Source: Thermoplasmata archaeon (lineage in GTDB: Archaea; Thermoplasmatota; Thermoplasmata; Thermoplasmatales; Thermoplasmataceae). Taken from it: 7,659 nucleotides of DNA. The stretch is from contig JAJZXP010000178.1 in NCBI GenBank assembly GCA_021806345.1, forward strand, positions 1 to 7,659. Reading direction: 5' to 3'. Under the pieces are notes generated by a model, which was given only the letters and a program-made list of their open reading frames with translations, was not told the DNA's origin and searched no databases. Position numbers and translations under genes: made by a program. Below are positions 1 through 7,659 of this stretch, piece after piece (positions within the stretch are counted from its first letter, which is position 1; each line of letters begins with the position of its first letter).

Positions 1-450
1 ATCACCACTTTTTATAATTGCAGCAGTGAGGTTTCGAATGTTTCTTGACTCATCTGAATATTTTTTAACTGGAAACATGTCGTTGGTTATTATTGTAGAT
101 TCATACCCTTTTTTGGACAGGTCAACAGCTCTTTGCCATATGACTTCATCAGCTGTTATACCTGCAGCACATTGATAGATTTTTCCCTTATTTATAAGCG
201 ACCTAAGATTATTTATGTTATCTATGCGATACATTATACTTGCATCCACATATGTTTCAATGTTGTCGTATGTTTCTTCAAGTTTATGTATCATATTAAG
301 AATATCGCCAAGTCTCGCTTTGTGCTTGTCATTCCTGGCCAGCGCCACATTCATCCCATCAACGATAGCATAGGTTTCCAAATTCCCGGACTCGCCAGTG
401 GGAGTTTTCACATCAAGTATTTCAATTCTTTTCGAATTTGTGTTACTCAT
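1..450 (-). CDS. NYN (PIN-like) ribonuclease, Zc3h12a type, C-terminus beyond left edge
   Basis: Reading the minus strand from ATG at 450-448 gives 150 codons without a stop to base 1, so the gene is cut by the window edge. The protein has the order expected of a Zc3h12a/MCPIP1-like NYN nuclease: a strand ending in VDGMN (D31, N34), a Rossmann-like alternation, then AGITADEVIW with acidic D101, and TIITNDMF with N123-D124. In this family such acidic residues bind a metal ion and cut RNA. About 25 residues precede the domain. The start is supported by a TATA-like box about 24-27 bases upstream, implying a leaderless transcript. The gene is divergent from a CARF regulator and probably co-controlled with it. 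The family call is by motif recognition; other PIN-like subfamilies remain possible, and the actual substrate is unknown. Confidence 0.72.
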   Translation of the reverse strand, partial: MSNTNSKRIEILDVKTPTGESGNLETYAIVDGMNVALARNDKHKARLGDILNMIHKLEETYDNIETYVDASIMYRIDNINNLRSLINKGKIYQCAAGITADEVIWQRAVDLSKKGYESTIITNDMFPVKKYSDESRNIRNLTAAIIKSGD

Positions 451-470
451 AATATGTAAATGAATAAAAA

Positions 471-477
471 ATATAAA
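471..477 (-). promoter_or_regulatory. TATA-like box for the NYN ribonuclease gene
   Basis: On the minus strand this reads TTTATAT, centred about 25 bases before the ATG at 450. That is the normal archaeal TATA-to-start-site distance, so transcription would begin at or next to the start codon and the mRNA would be leaderless. No Shine-Dalgarno sequence is visible, which agrees. Confidence 0.5.
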
Positions 478-485
478 TTAGTATT

Positions 486-510
486 TGGAAATTGTTTCCA
501 TCTTAGGAAA
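486..510. promoter_or_regulatory. candidate shared operator between divergent promoters
   Basis: TGGAAA (486-491) and TTTCCA (495-500) form a perfect 6+6 bp inverted repeat around a 3-base centre. A further GGAAA follows at 506-510, so three half-sites alternate in orientation. The element sits between the two opposing TATA boxes, where a dimeric winged-helix protein could control both genes. The adjacent CARF-wHTH product is the natural candidate to bind it. Binding is inference. Confidence 0.4.
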
Positions 511-513
511 TTA

Positions 514-521
514 TTTATTTA
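514..521 (+). promoter_or_regulatory. TATA-like box for the CARF regulator gene
   Basis: TTTATTTA is centred about 31 bases before the ATG at 549. The predicted start site is near 543-545, leaving a leader of only a few bases. No convincing Shine-Dalgarno precedes the ATG, consistent with near-leaderless translation. The same spacing argues for ATG 549 rather than the in-frame ATG at 567. Confidence 0.5.
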
Positions 522-548
522 TGAACGACATTTAACTTTGGATAACAT

Positions 549-1301
549 ATGAAAAAAGATGCCCCAATGGAAAACATTCACGTTTTCACTTCGGGAGAAC
601 ATATTGTGGAGACATTCAAGTCTGCAGTGAAGAAATTCAGCATCGACAGATTAGTTGTCTTCAGCGAAGTGTCCGATGGTGAAAAAAGCAAAGAAGGTAT
701 AAATAAGGCTATTAATGACCTCCGGAAACTTTCCGGGGAACTTGGTATAAAGTTTGAAACGGTTGAGGTTAGGGAAGGCAGCGTGGATGATGTAAGAGAC
801 CAGGTCATAAAGCTTACCAGAGATCATAATTGCAAGCTGTTCTTCAATCTTACTTCAGGCAAGAAAGTGCTATCACTTAACCTCTTTACCATGGCTCTAT
901 GGGTCAATGGGAATCCGTACTATGTTTATTTATCTGGCAAAATCGTTGAACTCAGCATCCCCCGGATACATGCGGACGAGCTTACCGGCAACCCTAATCT
1001 TGTCAAGATCCTCTCCATTGTTAATAATGAACAGGAAAAGATTAGAGGACCAGTCAGAAATGCCGATGTTTTTAAAATGGTCACAGAAGAGTATACACCT
1101 AATAAACTATTGCAGGAGAGTGGCAATTCCAGACTTCAGAGAGGGACATTCTCAAAGTGGGTTAGGCTCCTGATAGAAAGAAATCTGCTGGAAGAACAAT
1201 ATGTGGAAAATAACCACAAGAGCAAAACTCTGAGCATAACTCAGGACGGAATTTTTGCCGTAAAGTTTTTCGATGGATCATCAGCTTTGCGGCGTACCTG
1301 A
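549..1301 (+). CDS. CARF-domain winged-helix transcriptional regulator
   Basis: A 250-aa protein in two parts. Residues 8 to about 130 form a Rossmann-like CARF domain. The first strand runs into IHVFTSGEH (T14-S15-G16), and the later strand ends in FFNLTSGKKVLSLNLF (N100 to K106), matching the N-x-T-x-G-x-K signature that contacts ligand in CARF proteins. Residues 150-245 look like a winged helix: a predicted recognition helix around TFSKWVRLLIERNLLEE, a basic wing, then LSITQDGIFAVKFF. This architecture resembles Csa3 and the haloarchaeal DUF6293/HFX_2341 regulators. CARF domains bind cyclic oligoadenylates made by type III CRISPR systems, so the protein may sense such a signal, but no cas gene is in view. 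It is divergent from a NYN RNase. By eye it is more G/C-rich than the helicase gene downstream. The ligand is unknown. Confidence 0.8.
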   Translation: MKKDAPMENIHVFTSGEHIVETFKSAVKKFSIDRLVVFSEVSDGEKSKEGINKAINDLRKLSGELGIKFETVEVREGSVDDVRDQVIKLTRDHNCKLFFNLTSGKKVLSLNLFTMALWVNGNPYYVYLSGKIVELSIPRIHADELTGNPNLVKILSIVNNEQEKIRGPVRNADVFKMVTEEYTPNKLLQESGNSRLQRGTFSKWVRLLIERNLLEEQYVENNHKSKTLSITQDGIFAVKFFDGSSALRRT

Positions 1302-1588
1302 ATTATAGGATAATTAAATTGTTGCAGTTAAAATTAGAAATTGTAGTTATTGAAAGAGTTCACTTAAGGCCGCAAATACACAAACTATCTTAACAGAGAT
1401 ATCAGGTGAGTAATTGCGTCGTTAATGCTTTAGATACTTTAATGAAGAATCCTATATCGTCTTAAATTGTTAAATTTTACTCAAACCCTCTATATTGAAC
1501 TGCTTAACATTCTGACCGTTTAAAAATAGAGCCTTGACAGGGTGGGAAAGTTCTCCATGGCAGATGAGGAATATGACAGAGGTGTAGA

Positions 1589-1609
1589 ACTGAAACACTA
1601 TGTTTCAGT
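1589..1609. promoter_or_regulatory. 9+9 bp perfect inverted repeat, candidate operator of helicase gene
   Basis: ACTGAAACA (1589-1597) and TGTTTCAGT (1601-1609) are perfect reverse complements separated by CTA. The element lies about 45 bases before the proposed TATA box. Its 3-base centre and GAAA/TTTC arms resemble the smaller inverted repeat at 486-500, so one regulator might bind both. If translation really started at 1542 or 1557 the element would be inside the coding sequence, which makes the downstream start more attractive. Confidence 0.45.
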
Positions 1610-1652
1610 CAAATATTCTTTAAAGATGAGGATGTATTCTTTACAAGAATGT

Positions 1653-1660
1653 TTTATATA
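1653..1660 (+). promoter_or_regulatory. TATA-like box for helicase-nuclease gene
   Basis: TTTATATA is centred about 26 bases before the ATG at 1683, the canonical archaeal spacing for a leaderless mRNA. This is the main reason for preferring 1683 over the more upstream GTG 1542 or ATG 1557. Confidence 0.5.
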
Positions 1661-1682
1661 TTGTGATAAACTTATAATCTTA

Positions 1683-4442
1683 ATGGATAGAATTCTTAAT
1701 AAAATATTGAATGAACCATTCCAACTATCAGATGACCAACAAATTGCCATAAATTCTAATTCAAGATATACAAGAATAATCGCAGGTGCGGGTGCAGGTA
1801 AGACTGAGACTTTGGCTAGAAAGATTTTATACTATCTCATTTACAAAAAAATAGCACCATCATCGATTGTTGCATTCACTTTCACCGAAAAGGCAGCAGA
1901 AAGCATGAAAAGCAGGATTCACCAACGCTTATTGGAACTTGGTGAATTAGACTTGCTAAGAAAATTTGGCGAGATGTACGTAGGAACAATCCATGGCTAT
2001 TGTACTAGACTTTTACAGGATAAATATGAGTTTTCTAATTATACAGTACTAGATGAAAATCAGCAAATGGCATTTATAATAAGAGAAGGTTATAATATCG
2101 GATTGAACAAGACAGAATATGCCAAATATGGTTCATACCTTATGCGATGCAAGATTTTTATAGCGACATTAAATGCGTATTATTCTGAGTTAATTGATTT
2201 AAATTCGTTACAAGGTGAAGATGAACACTTCAAGATAATGCTGAAAAGATATGAATCTTTATTGAAGGAACACCATAAATTAACATTCGACACCTTAATC
2301 ACCACAAGTATTTTGAAATTACAGGAAGATCAGACTCCATTAAGTAATCTCAACTGTTTAGTTGTTGATGAATTCCAGGATGTTAACAAGGCTCAATATG
2401 TACTTATTAGACTTATGTCTCAAAAGGCAGAAGTCACAATAGTGGGAGACCCTCGTCAAAGCATATACCAGTGGAGAGGAGGGAATCCTAAATTCTTTGA
2501 AGATTTCATTAAAGAATTTGAAAGGGTACAAACCTATGAAATAAGTGAGAATAGACGAAGCCCAAGGGAAATCGTTCAGATGTCCAACCGCGTTTCCAAA
2601 AATTTTTCAGATGCTAAATTTAGTGACATGACGTGGAAAAGGGAGAACAGAGGTCTGATTAGTAAAGTAAATTTTCTTAATGCTGAACAAGAAGCAAATG
2701 AAATAGCAAATGAAATAGCATACTTAGCAAAAGACAAACACGTGCCATACTCAAATTTCGGTATTTTATTGAGAAGCATTAAAACATCCGCAGATCCCTT
2801 AATTAATGCCTTTAAGAGCATCAATATTCCATATATTGTTGGTGGTAAGGTAGGACTTTTCAAGAGGGACGAAGCACAGGCACTGGGTATGTTCATTACG
2901 GGCTTATTGGATAATGGCTATTGGCAATTAGATGCGTATGGTAGTCAAACAATAAGTGGAGAAAATTTAAGATTACAAGCTTTATCAAAGTGGAAGGGGG
3001 CCATTAGATACGATTTAATTGACGACGAGGTCGAAACCGGTCTAGTGCAATGGAAAAAGAAGGTGCTGAATTCTGTACCTTCAGACAATTATGGATATAA
3101 AGATGTATTACACGAATTGCTTAACATTTTAGGTTACAAGAAACTGAATCAGGATGATATTCTTGATGCAGTTGTAATGGCAAATGTTGGCGCATTTAGC
3201 AAAATATTAGGGGACTTTGAAACATCATTCAGGTTAGGTGGGAAAAGAAGAAGATTTGAAACCGAGTTAAGAGACCTTTGTAATTTCTTGAATGGATATG
3301 CATTAATGTCATACGATGAACAGCCATATGAGGAGGAGGAAGGTTTAAATGCGGTAAGTATAATGACGATTCACCAGTCAAAAGGTCTTCAATGGCCCAT
3401 TGTTTTCTTACCATCTATGATAAACAGCAGGTTTCCTTCTAGACGGAAAACAAACCCAGAAAAAATCTGGATGATTAATCCCGGCGTCATTTCTAATGAC
3501 GGATATTTCGAAAAGGAAGATAGTGAATTGAGGTTATTCTATGTGGCAATTACCAGAGCTATGAATGCAGTCATACTATCTTATTTTGATAAAAATACCA
3601 AGCAATCTACAAAACCCAGTGAATATTTTGATGTAATAAACGATTTCTGCCTATCAGTAAAAGAATTGCGTAACCTAAAACTGTTTGATTTTACAACAAA
3701 AGTCATGGCTTTACCTAACGTTATTGAATCGTTTCCAGTTAAAGAGTTAATAGATTACGAAATGTGTCCTTTCCACTATAGGCTCTCCAAAAAATGGAGA
3801 TACATTCAAGGAGTAAATACATTCATGGGATACGGAGACGCCCTTCACCATATCCTGCAGCTAACATCTCAAAAAATAAAGAATAATGGTGAAAAATACG
3901 ATGTTGCACTGGACGATGCTATCAAAAATTTTTACCTGCCTTATGCATCCCCAGAATTCAGAGATGAATTGCTCAAAAATGTAAAGCATGAACTGTTAGA
4001 TTATATGATTAAAAACGGGGAATATCTTGCAAATGTCAAAGAAACAGAGATGAGAATAGAATTCCCGGCCAAAAATGCAACAATAATAGGAAAAGTGGAT
4101 GTTATATTGCGTTCCAATATCGGACTAGAAGTCAGAGATTATAAATCATCTGAGAGTGTTATGAAAAGTGAACACTCTGTGTTACAGGTTCTGCTTTATG
4201 CGAAAGGATTAAGGGATCTAGGTTGGGATATTATTAAAGGGTCTGTGGCAAACTTGAAGAATAACAAAGTCGAAGATGTTACGGTCTCAGAAAATAATTT
4301 GAAAGAAGCGATGGAACGTGCAGAAGGAATAATTGATAAAATTAAGGCCCACTCGTATCAACCAAAACCGAGTGAATTTTGTGAAAAGTGTGAATATAGA
4401 ACTATTTGTTATAAAGCAGCTTCAAATGTGAGCAGTACTTAA
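1683..4442 (+). CDS. UvrD/AddA-type SF1 helicase fused to RecB/Cas4-like Fe-S nuclease
   Basis: A 919-aa protein that should unwind and degrade DNA from ends using ATP. Helicase motifs appear in order: LSDDQQ, Walker A GAGAGKT (K40), FTFTEKAA, GTIHGYC, Walker B DEFQD (D229-D233), GDPRQSIYQWRGG (D256), ENRRSP, TIHQSKGLQWP (H564) and LFYVAITRA (R625). A PD-(D/E)XK nuclease follows at about 690-910, with H722 in GDALHHIL, D806 in GKVD, D819-Y-K821, and QVLLYA. Cysteines C695, C900, C903 and C909 match the 4Fe-4S pattern of AddB and Cas4 nucleases. All catalytic residues look intact. The in-frame GTG 1542 and ATG 1557 would add up to 47 residues of poor domain character. I chose ATG 1683 from the TATA spacing and because UvrD proteins usually begin just before the Q motif. 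The likely role is end resection in repair or destruction of invading DNA. AdnAB-like single-chain enzymes are the closest comparison I know. Confidence 0.9.
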   Translation: MDRILNKILNEPFQLSDDQQIAINSNSRYTRIIAGAGAGKTETLARKILYYLIYKKIAPSSIVAFTFTEKAAESMKSRIHQRLLELGELDLLRKFGEMYVGTIHGYCTRLLQDKYEFSNYTVLDENQQMAFIIREGYNIGLNKTEYAKYGSYLMRCKIFIATLNAYYSELIDLNSLQGEDEHFKIMLKRYESLLKEHHKLTFDTLITTSILKLQEDQTPLSNLNCLVVDEFQDVNKAQYVLIRLMSQKAEVTIVGDPRQSIYQWRGGNPKFFEDFIKEFERVQTYEISENRRSPREIVQMSNRVSKNFSDAKFSDMTWKRENRGLISKVNFLNAEQEANEIANEIAYLAKDKHVPYSNFGILLRSIKTSADPLINAFKSINIPYIVGGKVGLFKRDEAQALGMFITGLLDNGYWQLDAYGSQTISGENLRLQALSKWKGAIRYDLIDDEVETGLVQWKKKVLNSVPSDNYGYKDVLHELLNILGYKKLNQDDILDAVVMANVGAFSKILGDFETSFRLGGKRRRFETELRDLCNFLNGYALMSYDEQPYEEEEGLNAVSIMTIHQSKGLQWPIVFLPSMINSRFPSRRKTNPEKIWMINPGVISNDGYFEKEDSELRLFYVAITRAMNAVILSYFDKNTKQSTKPSEYFDVINDFCLSVKELRNLKLFDFTTKVMALPNVIESFPVKELIDYEMCPFHYRLSKKWRYIQGVNTFMGYGDALHHILQLTSQKIKNNGEKYDVALDDAIKNFYLPYASPEFRDELLKNVKHELLDYMIKNGEYLANVKETEMRIEFPAKNATIIGKVDVILRSNIGLEVRDYKSSESVMKSEHSVLQVLLYAKGLRDLGWDIIKGSVANLKNNKVEDVTVSENNLKEAMERAEGIIDKIKAHSYQPKPSEFCEKCEYRTICYKAASNVSST

Positions 4443-4842: not shown

Positions 4843-5403
4843 TCATATGCTATAAGAATTGAATGGAATTTTATTTCCATTTATAAATTCGTGTAGTTCA
4901 TTTATCTCACTGGCATCCAAAGTATATTTTTCTTCATCAACACTATTAAAACAGAATCCTGACCTAACCCTTATGGGTTTCTTCAAATCAATGTATATGA
5001 ATTGTATCGGTGAAAAATTGTTACCTTCCTTAAAAAGCCTCATCAATTTCAGCTTTTCTTGAACATTCCTACCCCATTCTTCTCTCAATTTAAAATGATC
5101 TTTCTGAAATGTACGAATTTCAATAAAACTTGTATTACTATCAACCTTTATTCCCGGTTCTATGACCTTCTTAATTGTATAAAATGAATCAAATGGTGTA
5201 CTAAAAATACCAGTGTTTGTATATCCTATAATTACTTCGTTTTCATTATTGCTATTTCTGAGCAGTTTTAATAATTCTATACCTGTTGATTTATCAATCT
5301 TTTCTGCAATAAACTCATATTCAAACTTAACTTGAAGGATCGAATCATCACAATTCGAAAGAAATCCTATAAAAACAAGTTTTGGACTAATCTGATCAAC
5401 CAT
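4843..5403 (-). CDS. hypothetical protein, 186 aa
   Basis: I do not recognise this protein. It starts MVDQISPKLVFIGFLS and appears soluble, with no signal peptide or membrane segment. The pattern suggests mixed alpha/beta: strands around residues 8-30, a helix about 38-50, strands 55-70 and 95-105, and a charged helix about 105-125. A strand near QFIYIDLKK and a C-terminal helical stretch rich in acidic residues follow. No catalytic motif stands out. The start is well supported because a strong archaeal Shine-Dalgarno lies just upstream, which also argues that the gene is real. It faces the helicase-nuclease convergently and its upstream side borders the long non-coding region. It may be an accessory protein of this island; function unknown. 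Confidence 0.72.
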   Translation of the reverse strand: MVDQISPKLVFIGFLSNCDDSILQVKFEYEFIAEKIDKSTGIELLKLLRNSNNENEVIIGYTNTGIFSTPFDSFYTIKKVIEPGIKVDSNTSFIEIRTFQKDHFKLREEWGRNVQEKLKLMRLFKEGNNFSPIQFIYIDLKKPIRVRSGFCFNSVDEEKYTLDASEINELHEFINGNKIPFNSYSI

Positions 5404-5406
5404 TCG

Positions 5407-5417
5407 ATCACCACCTC
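5407..5417 (-). promoter_or_regulatory. strong archaeal ribosome binding site
   Basis: On the minus strand this reads GAGGTGGTGAT, containing both GAGGTG and GGTGAT, complements of the 16S rRNA 3' end. It ends three bases before the ATG at 5403, with the GAGGTG part at more usual spacing. It fixes the start of the 186-aa gene and shows that this mRNA has a leader, unlike the apparently leaderless NYN, CARF and helicase genes. Confidence 0.65.
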
Positions 5418-5470
5418 TAATGAATTTTTAATTTTAATCTCTCTCTAAATTCCGAAGTAGTCATTCCTAT

Positions 5471-5482
5471 TATTTGCAAATA
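5471..5482. promoter_or_regulatory. 12-bp palindrome upstream of the 186-aa gene
   Basis: TATTTGCAAATA is a perfect palindrome 68 bases upstream of the ATG at 5403. On the minus strand a TATA-like ATATTTATC lies immediately before it (around 5483-5491), so the palindrome would fall between a TATA box and a start site near 5461. That is a repressor-type position. Promoter placement is tentative because another A/T run at 5423-5438 could also act. Confidence 0.3.
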
Positions 5483-5635
5483 GATAAATATGGTAAACAC
5501 CGAGGGATGAATTATGCGAAGTTACATTATTTAAAAATATACACAGTCTATCGCGCATTTGCCTTTAAAGATAAGCGTGAACTATTAGCAGGATTTGCAT
5601 ATTGTGGTTCAGGCTCCAAAATACTCTTTTAGGAA

Positions 5636-5809
5636 CTATATTTCCAACGTCAAATGTCTGGAAGTCAGGATAGTAGCTATTCACGTTTGTGCCAAGCATA
5701 TATATTTCCTTCTAACTCTTTTGTATTGGTTCTTACAATTTCCTGATGCCATTGCCTGTATGAACAACAGCTTCAATCTGGCATTAGTTGAAATCACCAG
5801 ATAATGTGC
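5636..5809 (-). pseudogene. decayed transposase fragment, possibly IS110-like C-terminus
   Basis: The minus strand reads open from 5809, carrying NARLKLLFIQAMASG, then NCKNQYKRVRRKY and ICLAQT, a TGA at 5683-5681, and in the same frame IATILTSRHLTLEI before a TAG at 5638-5636. The order resembles the end of IS110-family transposases: an N-x-x-L-(R/K)-x-x-L-x-x-A helix, a basic Y-x-R-x-(R/K) stretch, then an A-R-K-(I/L)-A-x-I-(I/L) helix. The TGA would sit where that last helix normally has its arginine-lysine. Two in-frame stops and no upstream transposase mean it cannot be active. No terminal repeats were found. The family call is tentative; it could be another transposase class or coincidence. 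Confidence 0.3.
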
Positions 5810-6000
5810 TTACAAATTCCACTGAATATATTTTCAAACTCCCATAACAATTCTTAAATTATTTTTTTTATCCAAATCTTCATGTCATGGAAATGATGAT
5901 CCCTTTCACTGTAACCATGTCCACTTTTTAAATATTGATTTTTTTCATTCATAATTTTTTCATCTTAGTTAATTCTACCATGTTATTGATATGAGTATAG
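5810..6000. other. A/T-rich non-coding stretch flanking the array
   Basis: No gene is seen. The stretch contains several runs of six or more A or T residues (for example near 5860-5870, 5935-5945 and 5954-5960) and the first copy of the 17-bp direct repeat. Its low melting character next to an iteron-like array is what a DNA-unwinding element would look like, but that is only a resemblance. Confidence 0.35.
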
Positions 6001-6079
6001 AGGTTGTCACACCTGTCACACCCATAATTTTTTTTCTTGTTTTTCCGATCTTCAACTTTTTGATCTTAGTTAATTCTAC
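5962..6079. repeat. 17-bp direct repeat, 101-bp period
   Basis: ATCTTAGTTAATTCTAC occurs at 5962-5978 and again at 6063-6079, each preceded by a T run with one or two differences. In both copies a TGTCAC motif starts exactly 43 bases after the repeat starts (6005 and 6106). The whole 101-bp period is therefore conserved as a unit, indicating an old tandem duplication whose remaining parts have diverged. Confidence 0.7.
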
Positions 6080-6604
6080 TAAGACGTATGTCTATTTTAG
6101 GGGGGTGTCACCCCTATAATGCTTGTCATATATAGTCGCTTTTTAGGTGTGACAGTGTGACAGGTGTGACAGTGTGACAGCATTGCCTAAATCTTACGCG
6201 TTTTACTGCTTTTTTAAGCTGTCACACCCATGAAAAGGGGCTGTCACATGTGACAGGGGTGTGACAGGTTTTAGTTGTCACTCATGACAGGTGTGACAGG
6301 AGGTGTGACAAGGGGTGTTCTGATATTACGTGTTTTACTGACTATTTAGGCTGTCACACCTGTGACAGGTAGTGTGACAGGGGGTGTGATAGGTAAATCT
6401 CAGATATTGTGTATTTTAGGGTGTTTTTAAGATGTCACACCTGTGTCTTGGGAGCTGTCACATGTGACAGGTAGTGTGACAGCCTTTTAGACAAAAAAGA
6501 TGATCTGACCTGTCACATGTGACAGGTAGTGTTCTAAAAAGGTATATTTTACAGCGTTTACAAGCTGTCACACTGTGACAGGTAGTGTGACAGGGGGTGT
6601 GACA
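6005..6604. repeat. dense TGTCAC/GTGACA inverted and direct repeat array
   Basis: About 600 bases carry 12 TGTCA and 17 TGACA copies by hand count, most extended to CTGTCACA or TGTGACAG. Three perfect palindromes are present: CTGTCACATGTGACAG at 6241-6256 and 6455-6470, and an 18-bp version at 6509-6526. Near-palindromes lie at 6351-6368 (2-base centre) and 6565-6581 (1-base centre). G-rich linkers such as AGGGGGTGTGA join direct copies. Higher-order units begin at TGTCAC 6220, 6352, 6433 and 6566; the first three have 27-base T-rich lead-ins (6193-6219, 6325-6351, 6406-6432) and the first two of those match at 21 of 27. TGA stops occur throughout and no protein is encoded. It resembles a replication, partition or regulator-binding array; function is unknown. 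Confidence 0.85.
6146..6179 (+). repeat. perfect 17-bp tandem duplication inside the array
   Basis: GGTGTGACAGTGTGACA at 6146-6162 is repeated without change at 6163-6179, so four TGTGACA cores lie head to tail at intervals of 8 or 9 bases. Perfect identity in a region that otherwise drifts suggests a recent duplication by slippage or unequal exchange. Confidence 0.75.
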
Positions 6605-6867
6605 AAGTTATAGGTAGAGGCAAGTTTGACATTTGAATGGCATGACAGTAGTGAAATAATTCCACCACTAATTAACAGTCTTCTTTCACATTTTATGATG
6701 TGGGCAAGTCTTTATTGTGCAATGTGTTTGTATCAAGAGAATGTGTGTCTTAATAGCATATGCTATTTCCTGTACAGTGATGCATTTATAATTTCATGTA
6801 TGGAGTATCATTTTGTTATGATTTCCAGGTTTGCAAAAATAATACCATGGAAATCTTCTTCATGATC
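6605..6867. other. non-coding stretch between the array and hairpin cluster
   Basis: Two last degenerate TGACA copies occur at 6627 and 6643, after which the motif stops. A plus-strand open frame of 79 codons (6626-6865) has a random-looking, cysteine- and aromatic-rich composition, no ribosome binding site and no domain, so it is not called. The only other structure is the palindrome at 6752-6767. Confidence 0.4.
6752..6767. repeat. 16-bp perfect palindrome
   Basis: AATAGCATATGCTATT reads the same on both strands. It is unrelated in sequence to the TGTCAC array and is not followed by a T-run. It could bind a dimeric protein; no gene start lies close by. Confidence 0.55.
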
Positions 6868-6923
6868 TCATGGATACAAAATCCATGATCATTTATCATA
6901 CTGTGATAAATGATTTCACAGTA
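6868..6923. repeat. cluster of three consecutive, partly exclusive hairpins
   Basis: Hairpin 1 pairs TCATGGAT (6868-6875) with ATCCATGA (6881-6888). Hairpin 2 pairs ATCATTTATCA (6888-6898) with TGATAAATGAT (6904-6914), 11 perfect pairs with a 5-base loop. Hairpin 3 pairs TACTGTGA (6899-6906) with TCACAGTA (6916-6923) and cannot form together with hairpin 2. CATGATC is also directly repeated at 6861-6867 and 6884-6890. The arrangement resembles a switching RNA, an origin with nested palindromes, or a recombination site. No T-run follows on the plus strand that would make it a simple terminator. Confidence 0.65.
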
Positions 6924-6937
6924 GGTGTGTTCCCTTA

Positions 6938-6949
6938 TTTGTTAACAAA
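6938..6949. repeat. 12-bp perfect palindrome
   Basis: TTTGTTAACAAA is palindromic and lies 15 bases after the hairpin cluster. It may be part of the same element. Confidence 0.4.
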
Positions 6950-7181
6950 CAGAAATTTCAGACAGGATTAATTGTGAAATAGATCAATCCAGTATTTTCT
7001 GATTTTTGCATGGAAGGCAAATTCAGTGAAAATATAGGGATATTTGAAAGATTTTATATCATTTATTTGTGCCATTATGAAGTCTTTCTGATCAAAATCT
7101 CACCTTCAACTTCATAAAATCCAATGTGTTCTGATTTTGAAATATTTATTCTAAATTCCAGTTCCTTAAATAAGTTTATAT
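6950..7181. other. A/T-rich non-coding stretch downstream of the LabA-like gene
   Basis: No gene, RNA or clear terminator is visible here. It is the downstream side of the minus-strand NYN gene. TATA-like strings occur by base composition but none is positioned before a supported gene. Confidence 0.4.
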
Positions 7182-7659
7182 TTAGCGATGGAGAGTTGAA
7201 TATTTAACAAGCACATCTTCAGTAAGAGGGTTTGCTCCATCACAGTTTCTTGCGAGTTCCCCATTATTATCTTTATTTGCAGACCAAAGATATACCCTGG
7301 TTCCCTGATCTTGGACGTATTTGACTACTGGAATGAAATCAGTATCTCCAGATACAAGAATGATATTTTGTATATTTGATTTTGAGAGTGTGATCATGTC
7401 CACTGCAAGCTGGATATCTACCTGTTTCTGTACAAAATGAAATCCTACCTTTTTTTTCTCTCCACGCCTAATTTTAAAATTAGCCAGTTTTTCTAACCTG
7501 TCAAGGAGGACTTCGTTTGATTTGAACTCACAATCATACACATAAGTTCTAAACAAAGAAGAATTATGTTTCTCGCATAATAAATCACAAAATGATTTAT
7601 AATCAAGTTTGAAGGTGCCTTCCATGTGATTCAGCACTTCCTTTTTCAAATAATAGTTG
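7182..7659 (-). CDS. LabA/DUF88-like NYN-domain protein, N-terminus beyond right edge
   Basis: 158 residues are visible before the stop at 7184-7182. The frame stays open to the window edge, and the first visible residues, NYYLKKEVLNHMEG, fit the position just after the D-G-x-N motif that opens NYN domains. The real start is therefore outside, and the in-frame TTG at 7649 is an internal leucine codon. The visible part shows LFRTYVYDCEF, KQVDIQLAVDM (the conserved K-x-V-D with aspartates) and ILVSGDTDFIPVVKYVQDQGTRVYLW, whose GDTDF aspartates form the PIN-like metal site. The C-terminus is short, with no added domain. NYN proteins of this group are putative RNases acting on RNA processing or decay, and some are linked to defence or toxin loci. 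It belongs to a different subfamily from the NYN gene at the left edge. Confidence 0.85.
   Translation of the reverse strand, partial: NYYLKKEVLNHMEGTFKLDYKSFCDLLCEKHNSSLFRTYVYDCEFKSNEVLLDRLEKLANFKIRRGEKKKVGFHFVQKQVDIQLAVDMITLSKSNIQNIILVSGDTDFIPVVKYVQDQGTRVYLWSANKDNNGELARNCDGANPLTEDVLVKYSTLHR

Follow-up and report, generated by a model that had tools for sequence, protein, structure and literature searches.

Gene context and make-up of the array

The window considered in this study (the whole stretch of 7,659 nucleotides analysed, from an acidophilic archaeon) contains an array of short repeats, placed between genes for a CARF/Csa3-like regulator and a UvrD helicase and an ORF on one side, and a gene encoding an NYN-domain protein on the other (Table 1). 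Within the approximately 1.8 kb around the array (5404-7181) all listed ORFs are shorter than 80 codons, and none of those with at least 60 codons overlaps the array itself, which rules out a coding repeat at this place. Heptamer repeats residing in long ORFs (e.g. of the VTPP type, according to our reading, in loci L003 and L022) were seen and set aside. A known RNA family or tRNA was also rejected, since none was found in the window, as was a CRISPR array or leader, because of the irregular spacing of the repeats.

Table 1. Coordinates of genes, flanks and repeats in the window
Feature	Position	Strand	Remarks
CARF/Csa3-like regulator	549..1301	+	variable left neighbour; Pfam match below cut-off, PADLOC Csa3 match strong
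UvrD helicase with PD-(D/E)XK/Cas4-like nuclease domain	1542..4442	+	variable left neighbour, outside the element
ORF	4843..5403	-	function unassigned
A/T-rich left flank	5408..6000		no convincing gene
Array	6005..6604		25 heptamers, TGTGACA (>) or TGTCACA (<), and 4 further TGTCA/TGACA cores
Tightest direct block	6148..6179	+	four TGTGACA, gaps 1, 2, 1
Higher-order repeat	6201..6573	+	27-nt piece with CTGTCACAC (or ATGTCACAC) at its end
Perfect 16-bp palindrome	6241..6256		CTGTCACATGTGACAG; two heptamers, gap 0
Perfect 16-bp palindrome	6455..6470		CTGTCACATGTGACAG again
Perfect 20-bp palindrome	6508..6527		ACCTGTCACATGTGACAGGT; read off the sequence, 17- and 18-base parts listed by the repeat search
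Right flank	6605..7181		no convincing gene; kept in G052
NYN-domain gene	7182..7658	-	runs off the window end

The earlier note on this DNA reported some 29 copies of a five-base core in 600 bases, and our recount gave the same number (12 TGTCA and 17 TGACA at 6005-6604). In 2000 first-order Markov sequences built on the array's own dinucleotides the expected number is 3.94 +/- 1.90 and the maximum 12; chance clustering can therefore be ruled out. Twenty-five cores belong to full heptamers, TGTGACA (16 copies) or TGTCACA (9 copies), which occur nowhere else in the 7659 bases of the window. Their order along the array is <<>>>><<>>>><>><<>><><>>>, and the gaps between neighbouring heptamers within clusters are mostly of 0, 1, 2, 4 or 5 bases. 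The palindromes are perfect in three cases (16, 16 and 20 bp), while two further inverted pairs are imperfect, with a centre of 1-2 bases between the arms, so the previous mention of "many" perfect palindromes of 16-18 bp was an overstatement. The 27-nt piece starts at 6201, 6333, 6414 and 6547, i.e. with steps of 132, 81 and 133.

Two other features noted previously are borne out. The linkers of the array are G-rich (GG, GGTAG, GGGGG), and 84% of the 25 heptamers have G as the next base in a flank logo, from which 8 near-duplicate viral loci and clusters of fewer than 6 copies were omitted. The DNA alongside the array is A/T-rich, with an A+T content of 74-75% at 5801-6000 vs 65% for the whole window.

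The array in other archaeal genomes

A search for the inverted pair plus one further copy in 117 genomes of the order revealed a single matching genome (G052), and a search for the direct triple in 389 genomes taken from the phylum identified the same genome and two others of the Thermoplasmatota (G151 and G311). In G052 the array is located at 1,558,381 of a contig of 1,938,699 bp, of which 40,000 bases read N. This genome is probably that of Cuniculiplasma divulgatum S5, since its CRISPR-cas region, with 58 repeat copies (57 exact), agrees with that published for strain S5 (57 spacers, cas4/cas1 and cas2; PMC5155288). All TGTCACA-N0-10-TGTGACA pairs of G052, and all heptamer pairs whose starts are less than 40 bases apart, fall in the single array. 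Apart from a TATATAT microsatellite, no heptamer cluster on the chromosome is denser, and the CRISPR repeat ranks next. Similar arrays dispersed through the genome, named in the earlier note as a finding that would speak against its proposal, were looked for in G052 and not seen: there is one cluster in 1.94 Mb, which rules out a satellite or dispersed mobile repeat.

The alignment of the window with G052 runs rightwards from about position 5408, and there is no match to the left of it. Within the array the motif columns are identical at 118 of 118 positions and the linkers at 260 of 276; according to a hand estimate, which alignment within repeats may flatter, the odds that all 16 differences spare the motif are about 0.003. 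Identity reaches 95.8% (545/569) in the left flank (5430-6000), 90.7% (407/449) at 6611-7060 and 95.0% at 7061-7181 in the right flank, and 469 of 477 positions in the NYN gene. The 25 heptamers of the window correspond to 17 in G052, a difference that probably reflects gain or loss of units of the 27-nt type.

The genes placed to the left are not the same: the window carries the UvrD-nuclease and CARF genes, while G052 contains an MvaI/BcnI-type restriction system. Rightwards, the NYN gene of G052 is followed by the CRISPR, cas2, cas4-cas1 and then genes called Cas5/6g (I-U) and GSU0053 (PADLOC, Pfam). Since the array and its right side align while the left-hand genes differ, the array is a constant feature inside a changing defence island in the window and G052. 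This arrangement also rules out a CRISPR leader, given that the CRISPR of G052 begins about 1.2 kb from the array, past the NYN gene, and that cas2 is placed at the far end of the CRISPR.

No replication initiator was recognised among the 6 window ORFs scanned, nor among the 8 scanned ORFs of the array neighbourhood in G052 (L218). When all G052 ORFs of at least 100 codons were searched with viral replication proteins, none was found near the array; the primase- or helicase-like ORFs of this genome are at least 168 kb from it. Candidate initiators elsewhere in G052 are a weakly DUF5906-like protein at 1,174,823 and putative helicases at 1,388,181 and 869,979. The Rep_3 family (PF01051) has no match in G052. 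The raw GC skew of G052 has its extremes at 522,770 and 1,683,696, while the detrended GC maximum lies at 1,420,532 and the RY maximum at 1,299,459; since the skew is weak and these measures disagree, no origin is firmly located by it.

Motifs in the two other genomes are arranged differently. In G311 five TGTGACA/TGTCACA sites (L411:10348-10447, also L328) fall inside one gene adjoining an integrase gene. We read the product of the site-bearing gene as a putative helicase-type ATPase, its sole Pfam match being a sub-threshold winged-helix HTH, and the sites, which encode Val-Thr (TSVTSVTS, NVTNVTHVT), are possibly iterons embedded in the coding part of an initiator gene. In G151 (63% G+C in this region) five direct TGTCACA copies with 4-6 base gaps (L412:7006-7060) are located, in our reading, between two ORFs.

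A part of the left flank (5771-5978) has a second copy (68-69%) elsewhere in G052. This copy lies in a region (L299:3763-18998; 1,384-1,399 kb) which we read as a probable integrated element, containing a putative integrase gene adjoining tRNA-Pro, a primase-like ORF, type I and C5-methylase restriction genes, and a gene for a putative helicase related to the G311 protein (E 1.8e-22); none of the putative integrase, helicase and primase has a Pfam match. A short IS-like ORF occupies the place where the array would stand. The helicase-like protein of G052 gave no match in a sequence search of solved structures, and that of G311 has no relatives in the viral scan. Among 17 regions encoding thermoplasmatal relatives of the G052 protein, TGTGACA clusters are present only in those of G311 and G151, which had entered this set through the motif search. 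Because the related elements elsewhere have no TGTGACA cluster, the arrival of the left flank with a mobile replicon can be treated only as a lead.

Heptamer clusters of plasmid F and of viruses

The 10 kb of plasmid F that were scanned contain 10 TGTGACA/TGTCACA copies, of which 9 are located at repE: four direct copies upstream of the gene, an inverted pair, and three copies downstream. They sit where PMC13028717 places the iterons of oriS (four), the operator (two inverted repeats, to which RepE binds as dimers, in the interval between the repE promoter and gene) and the iterons of incC (five). According to the same source, the F origin (oriS, or ori2) contains A/T-rich DNA, and its authors concluded that an oriS plasmid was blocked when incC was present in high dosage. 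F and the archaeal array share the identical heptamer and its use in direct repeats and an inverted pair, which in F are found at a replication locus; A/T-rich DNA occurs at the F origin and also beside the array, in a window with 65% A+T overall. The two differ in several respects, however. Three of the four upstream copies of F extend as AATTGCCCT, which none of the 25 copies of the window was seen to do; the starts of the F copies are at least 21 bases apart, whereas archaeal copies are separated by 0-5 bases within clusters; the F pair is TGTGACA-N11-TGTCACA, the opposite order to the archaeal TGTCACA-N0-2-TGTGACA; F has 9 copies, compared with 25; and F encodes RepE, a protein whose family, Rep_3, is the one lacking a match in G052.

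Viral contigs (IMG/VR) were searched with motif triples, and this yielded 35 loci for the inverted form and at least 120 for the direct one. In 34 of the 155 listed loci there are at least 6 copies, in both orientations and mostly outside ORFs. The reversed motif, used as a control, gave 38 loci, of which 3 pass the same criterion, all with near-even tandem spacing. With TCTGACA as the control, 26 of 32 loci pass, and this is a warning that such clusters may be specific neither to TGTGACA nor to origins. All but one of the 32 TCTGACA loci (L179-L210) form one DNA family, whose intergenic cluster has copies on both strands in most members; a replication gene was recognised in 8 loci, 7-10 kb from the cluster.

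Intergenic clusters, defined by at least 4 copies in 600 bases with no more than 34% of the copies in ORFs of at least 120 codons, are present in 68 of the 178 listed viral loci, and these 68 belong to 59 DNA families. We collected the 105 nearest flanking ORFs of about 150 codons or more, dropped 22 placed more than 700 bp away and scanned the remaining 83. Among the 25 of 35 Pfam families listed for them are DUF5906 (13), VapE (4), DUF3987 (4), D5_N (3) and Prim-Pol (3); terminase small subunits account for 3 ORFs. None of these five families is found among the 25 of 38 listed for 83 control ORFs of the same viral contigs, taken more than 1.2 kb from the cluster.

Each of eight large cluster-flanking proteins has a match to a primase, helicase or polymerase family of PHROG. 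They served as seeds in a further search, and, having been selected as neighbours of clusters, are a biased choice. A homologue of a seed was recognised in 17 of the 68 cluster loci, and in 16 of the 17 it overlies the cluster or is no more than 600 bp away (0.11 for random placement). In the wider set of 152 loci (L027-L178) a homologue is present in 24, and within this distance or over the cluster in 22. At 51 of the 68 viral clusters the DNA examined contains no homologue of the eight seeds.

As a sample not selected by the motif, named phages were chosen by tblastn with four of these proteins, 12 of the 48 listed matches being hand-picked for variety. TGTGACA clusters are absent from all 12 regions. 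In six there is a cluster of another heptamer that exceeds every one of 60 Markov resamplings and lies 8-534 bp from the primase/helicase gene: CCGCACA (11 copies) in Stenotrophomonas phage S1, TCAGACA (9) in Halomonas phage vB_HmeY_H4907, CTGTCCC (7) in Haddon, CGTTACA (9) in Alteromonas phage vB_AmaS-R9Y1, GACTACA (5) in AeroV_348 and GGGGTGA (8) in Marinobacter phage PS3. Some of these clusters fall in small hypothetical ORFs; the other six regions have no clear cluster of any heptamer. Heptamer clusters would therefore commonly accompany phage primase/helicase replication genes, with TGTGACA as one word of several. Four of the phage heptamers (CCGCACA, TCAGACA, CGTTACA and GACTACA, at L413:2471-2733, L415:4673-4901, L417:1961-2224 and L418:812-1065) end in ACA like TGTGACA, perhaps reflecting a single iteron code in which the ACA end is fixed.

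The clusters beside phage primase and SF3-type helicase genes resemble the archaeal array in that direct and inverted copies of one heptamer are gathered within a few hundred bases, for the most part in DNA outside genes or inside small ORFs. They differ from it in the presence of a primase/helicase gene nearby in the recognised cases, while none was recognised beside the archaeal array, and the phages S1, vB_HmeY_H4907, vB_AmaS-R9Y1 and PS3 use other heptamers.

Possible functions of the array

Compared with the viral clusters, the array has the layout of an iteron origin, i.e. clustered short repeats in both orientations, with irregular gaps and outside genes. Our best explanation, to which we give a probability of roughly 0.47, is that the repeats are iterons for an initiator of plasmid or viral type, and that the array is the retained or relict origin of a mobile replicon in the defence island. 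Binding by such an initiator is proposed because the heptamer is shared with the replication start of F and recurs in many phages, and the origin in a mobile replicon because the array has no recognised initiator gene beside it and is placed inside the defence island of a Cuniculiplasma chromosome. The initiator would bind as dimers on the TGTCACA-TGTGACA pairs and side by side on the direct repeats, the A/T-rich left flank might melt as a candidate unwinding region, and the locus would be derived from a mobile replicon that entered the island. The iteron-like part of the earlier proposal (an origin, centromere or protein-binding platform) is thus retained, on account of the F repE heptamer and the clusters beside some viral primase/helicase genes. 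Since no adjacent initiator was found, we do not assign the array to any named family.

If this reading is correct, it would place a candidate origin of the iteron type in a thermoplasmatal chromosome, and would link the array to the heptamer of the F replication locus and of 59 viral DNA families, in some of which it lies directly beside the replication module. The thermoplasmatal group is hard to manipulate genetically, and the array, if active, offers an origin for vectors within it.

Our partial search of the literature found no account of such heptamer arrays in connection with iterons or origins. Comparable arrangements are known from bacterial islands. SaPI Rep and SCCmec Cch2 are initiator helicases with downstream iterons (PMC7581432), so that, as predicted for the array, short repeats are bound by an initiator at an origin or putative origin; the SCCmec iteron is AAGTG, however, and the initiator gene of these islands is adjacent. 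The PLE satellite of Vibrio cholerae also has an iteron origin within a phage-defence island, and its replication lowers that of phage DNA (PMC7145576). Unlike the array, PLE encodes its own RepA_N initiator and is mobile, and the parts of this source drawn on here do not describe it as a passive decoy. Plasmid pRN1 of Sulfolobus is, like the array, archaeal, and has a primase-helicase initiator, but its origin is a stem-loop, explicitly free of iterons (PMC4234260).

The main rival to the iteron reading is an operator platform, on which a dimeric winged-helix regulator of the host would bind cooperatively and thereby regulate either the NYN/CRISPR island or some non-coding transcript. The TGTCACA-(0-2)-TGTGACA pairs suit a dimer site, defence genes flank the array on both sides, and there is a CARF/Csa3-like regulator in the window. 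We nevertheless consider this unlikely: 25 sites in 600 bases are more than an ordinary operator has, and G052 has no close motif pairs outside the array. Moreover, the NYN gene is transcribed towards the array, which is therefore placed behind its 3' end, and the nearest gene start in the window (5403) is about 0.6 kb away. The difference between the left-hand genes of the window and G052 also argues against this function.

A further possibility is a partition site resembling a centromere (as the earlier note also suggested), serving either the chromosome or an element integrated into it. It would agree with a long array of short repeats at a single locus, yet it appears improbable, given that the ParB HTH domain (PF17762) has no match in G052, while the same search found this family in 9 of 14 control genomes, and that no ParA-like gene was recognised among the neighbouring proteins scanned (window and L218).

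It is similarly improbable, in our estimation, that the array is a passive decoy, i.e. a sponge resembling incC of F in trans. Invading plasmids and viruses with TGTGACA iterons would have their initiators titrated or handcuffed by it, and their replication would so be blocked. Several observations are in line with this idea: the array sits within a defence island, with restriction or CARF genes on one side and the CRISPR on the other, no initiator was recognised beside it, its motif bases are conserved, the motif is present at viral replication modules, and incC has the effect on oriS described above. Nevertheless, no virus or plasmid of the host with TGTGACA iterons was found in searches that were narrow (BLAST of the whole window against plasmids and of 5700-7000 against phages, and an exact 17-mer and the conserved left flank in the viral scan), and the heptamer is contained in none of the 56 G052 spacers lying between exact CRISPR repeats. 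If true, the decoy would represent a new kind of protein-free defence, and TGTGACA a widely shared initiator code, jammed by one cheap chromosomal array.

Least probable of all, and only barely plausible, is an Orc1/Cdc6-dependent chromosomal origin of Cuniculiplasma, also raised in the earlier note: the array is a single locus, with repeats beside A/T-rich DNA, kept in two genomes, and no obvious repeat array was seen at the cdc6 gene of G052, but the sole Cdc6 match is at 1,408,255, i.e. 150 kb from the array, none of the GC, RY and MK disparities turns at the array, and the pattern is missing from 116 of the 117 genomes of the order. A literature search found no work joining "Cuniculiplasma divulgatum" with "origin of replication".

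Several minor observations concern the DNA on both sides of the array. The UvrD/nuclease fusion protein (966 aa) has the GajB helicase model as its top PADLOC match, and no relative in the genome-contig scan. Relatives of the CARF protein are encoded in three Thermoplasmata MAGs and one "uncultured archaeon" genome. The left end of the window (1-1301) is similar to part of a MAG (L211:7693-9104), in which a divergent pair, composed of an NYN-like ORF (our reading, with no Pfam or PADLOC match) and the CARF/Csa3-like regulator gene, is kept while the surrounding genes differ. On the other side, 64 bases just behind the NYN gene (7083-7146) have 79-81% matches in four other genomes of the order, occurring twice in two of them; in another frame this piece looks like the end of a small ORF.
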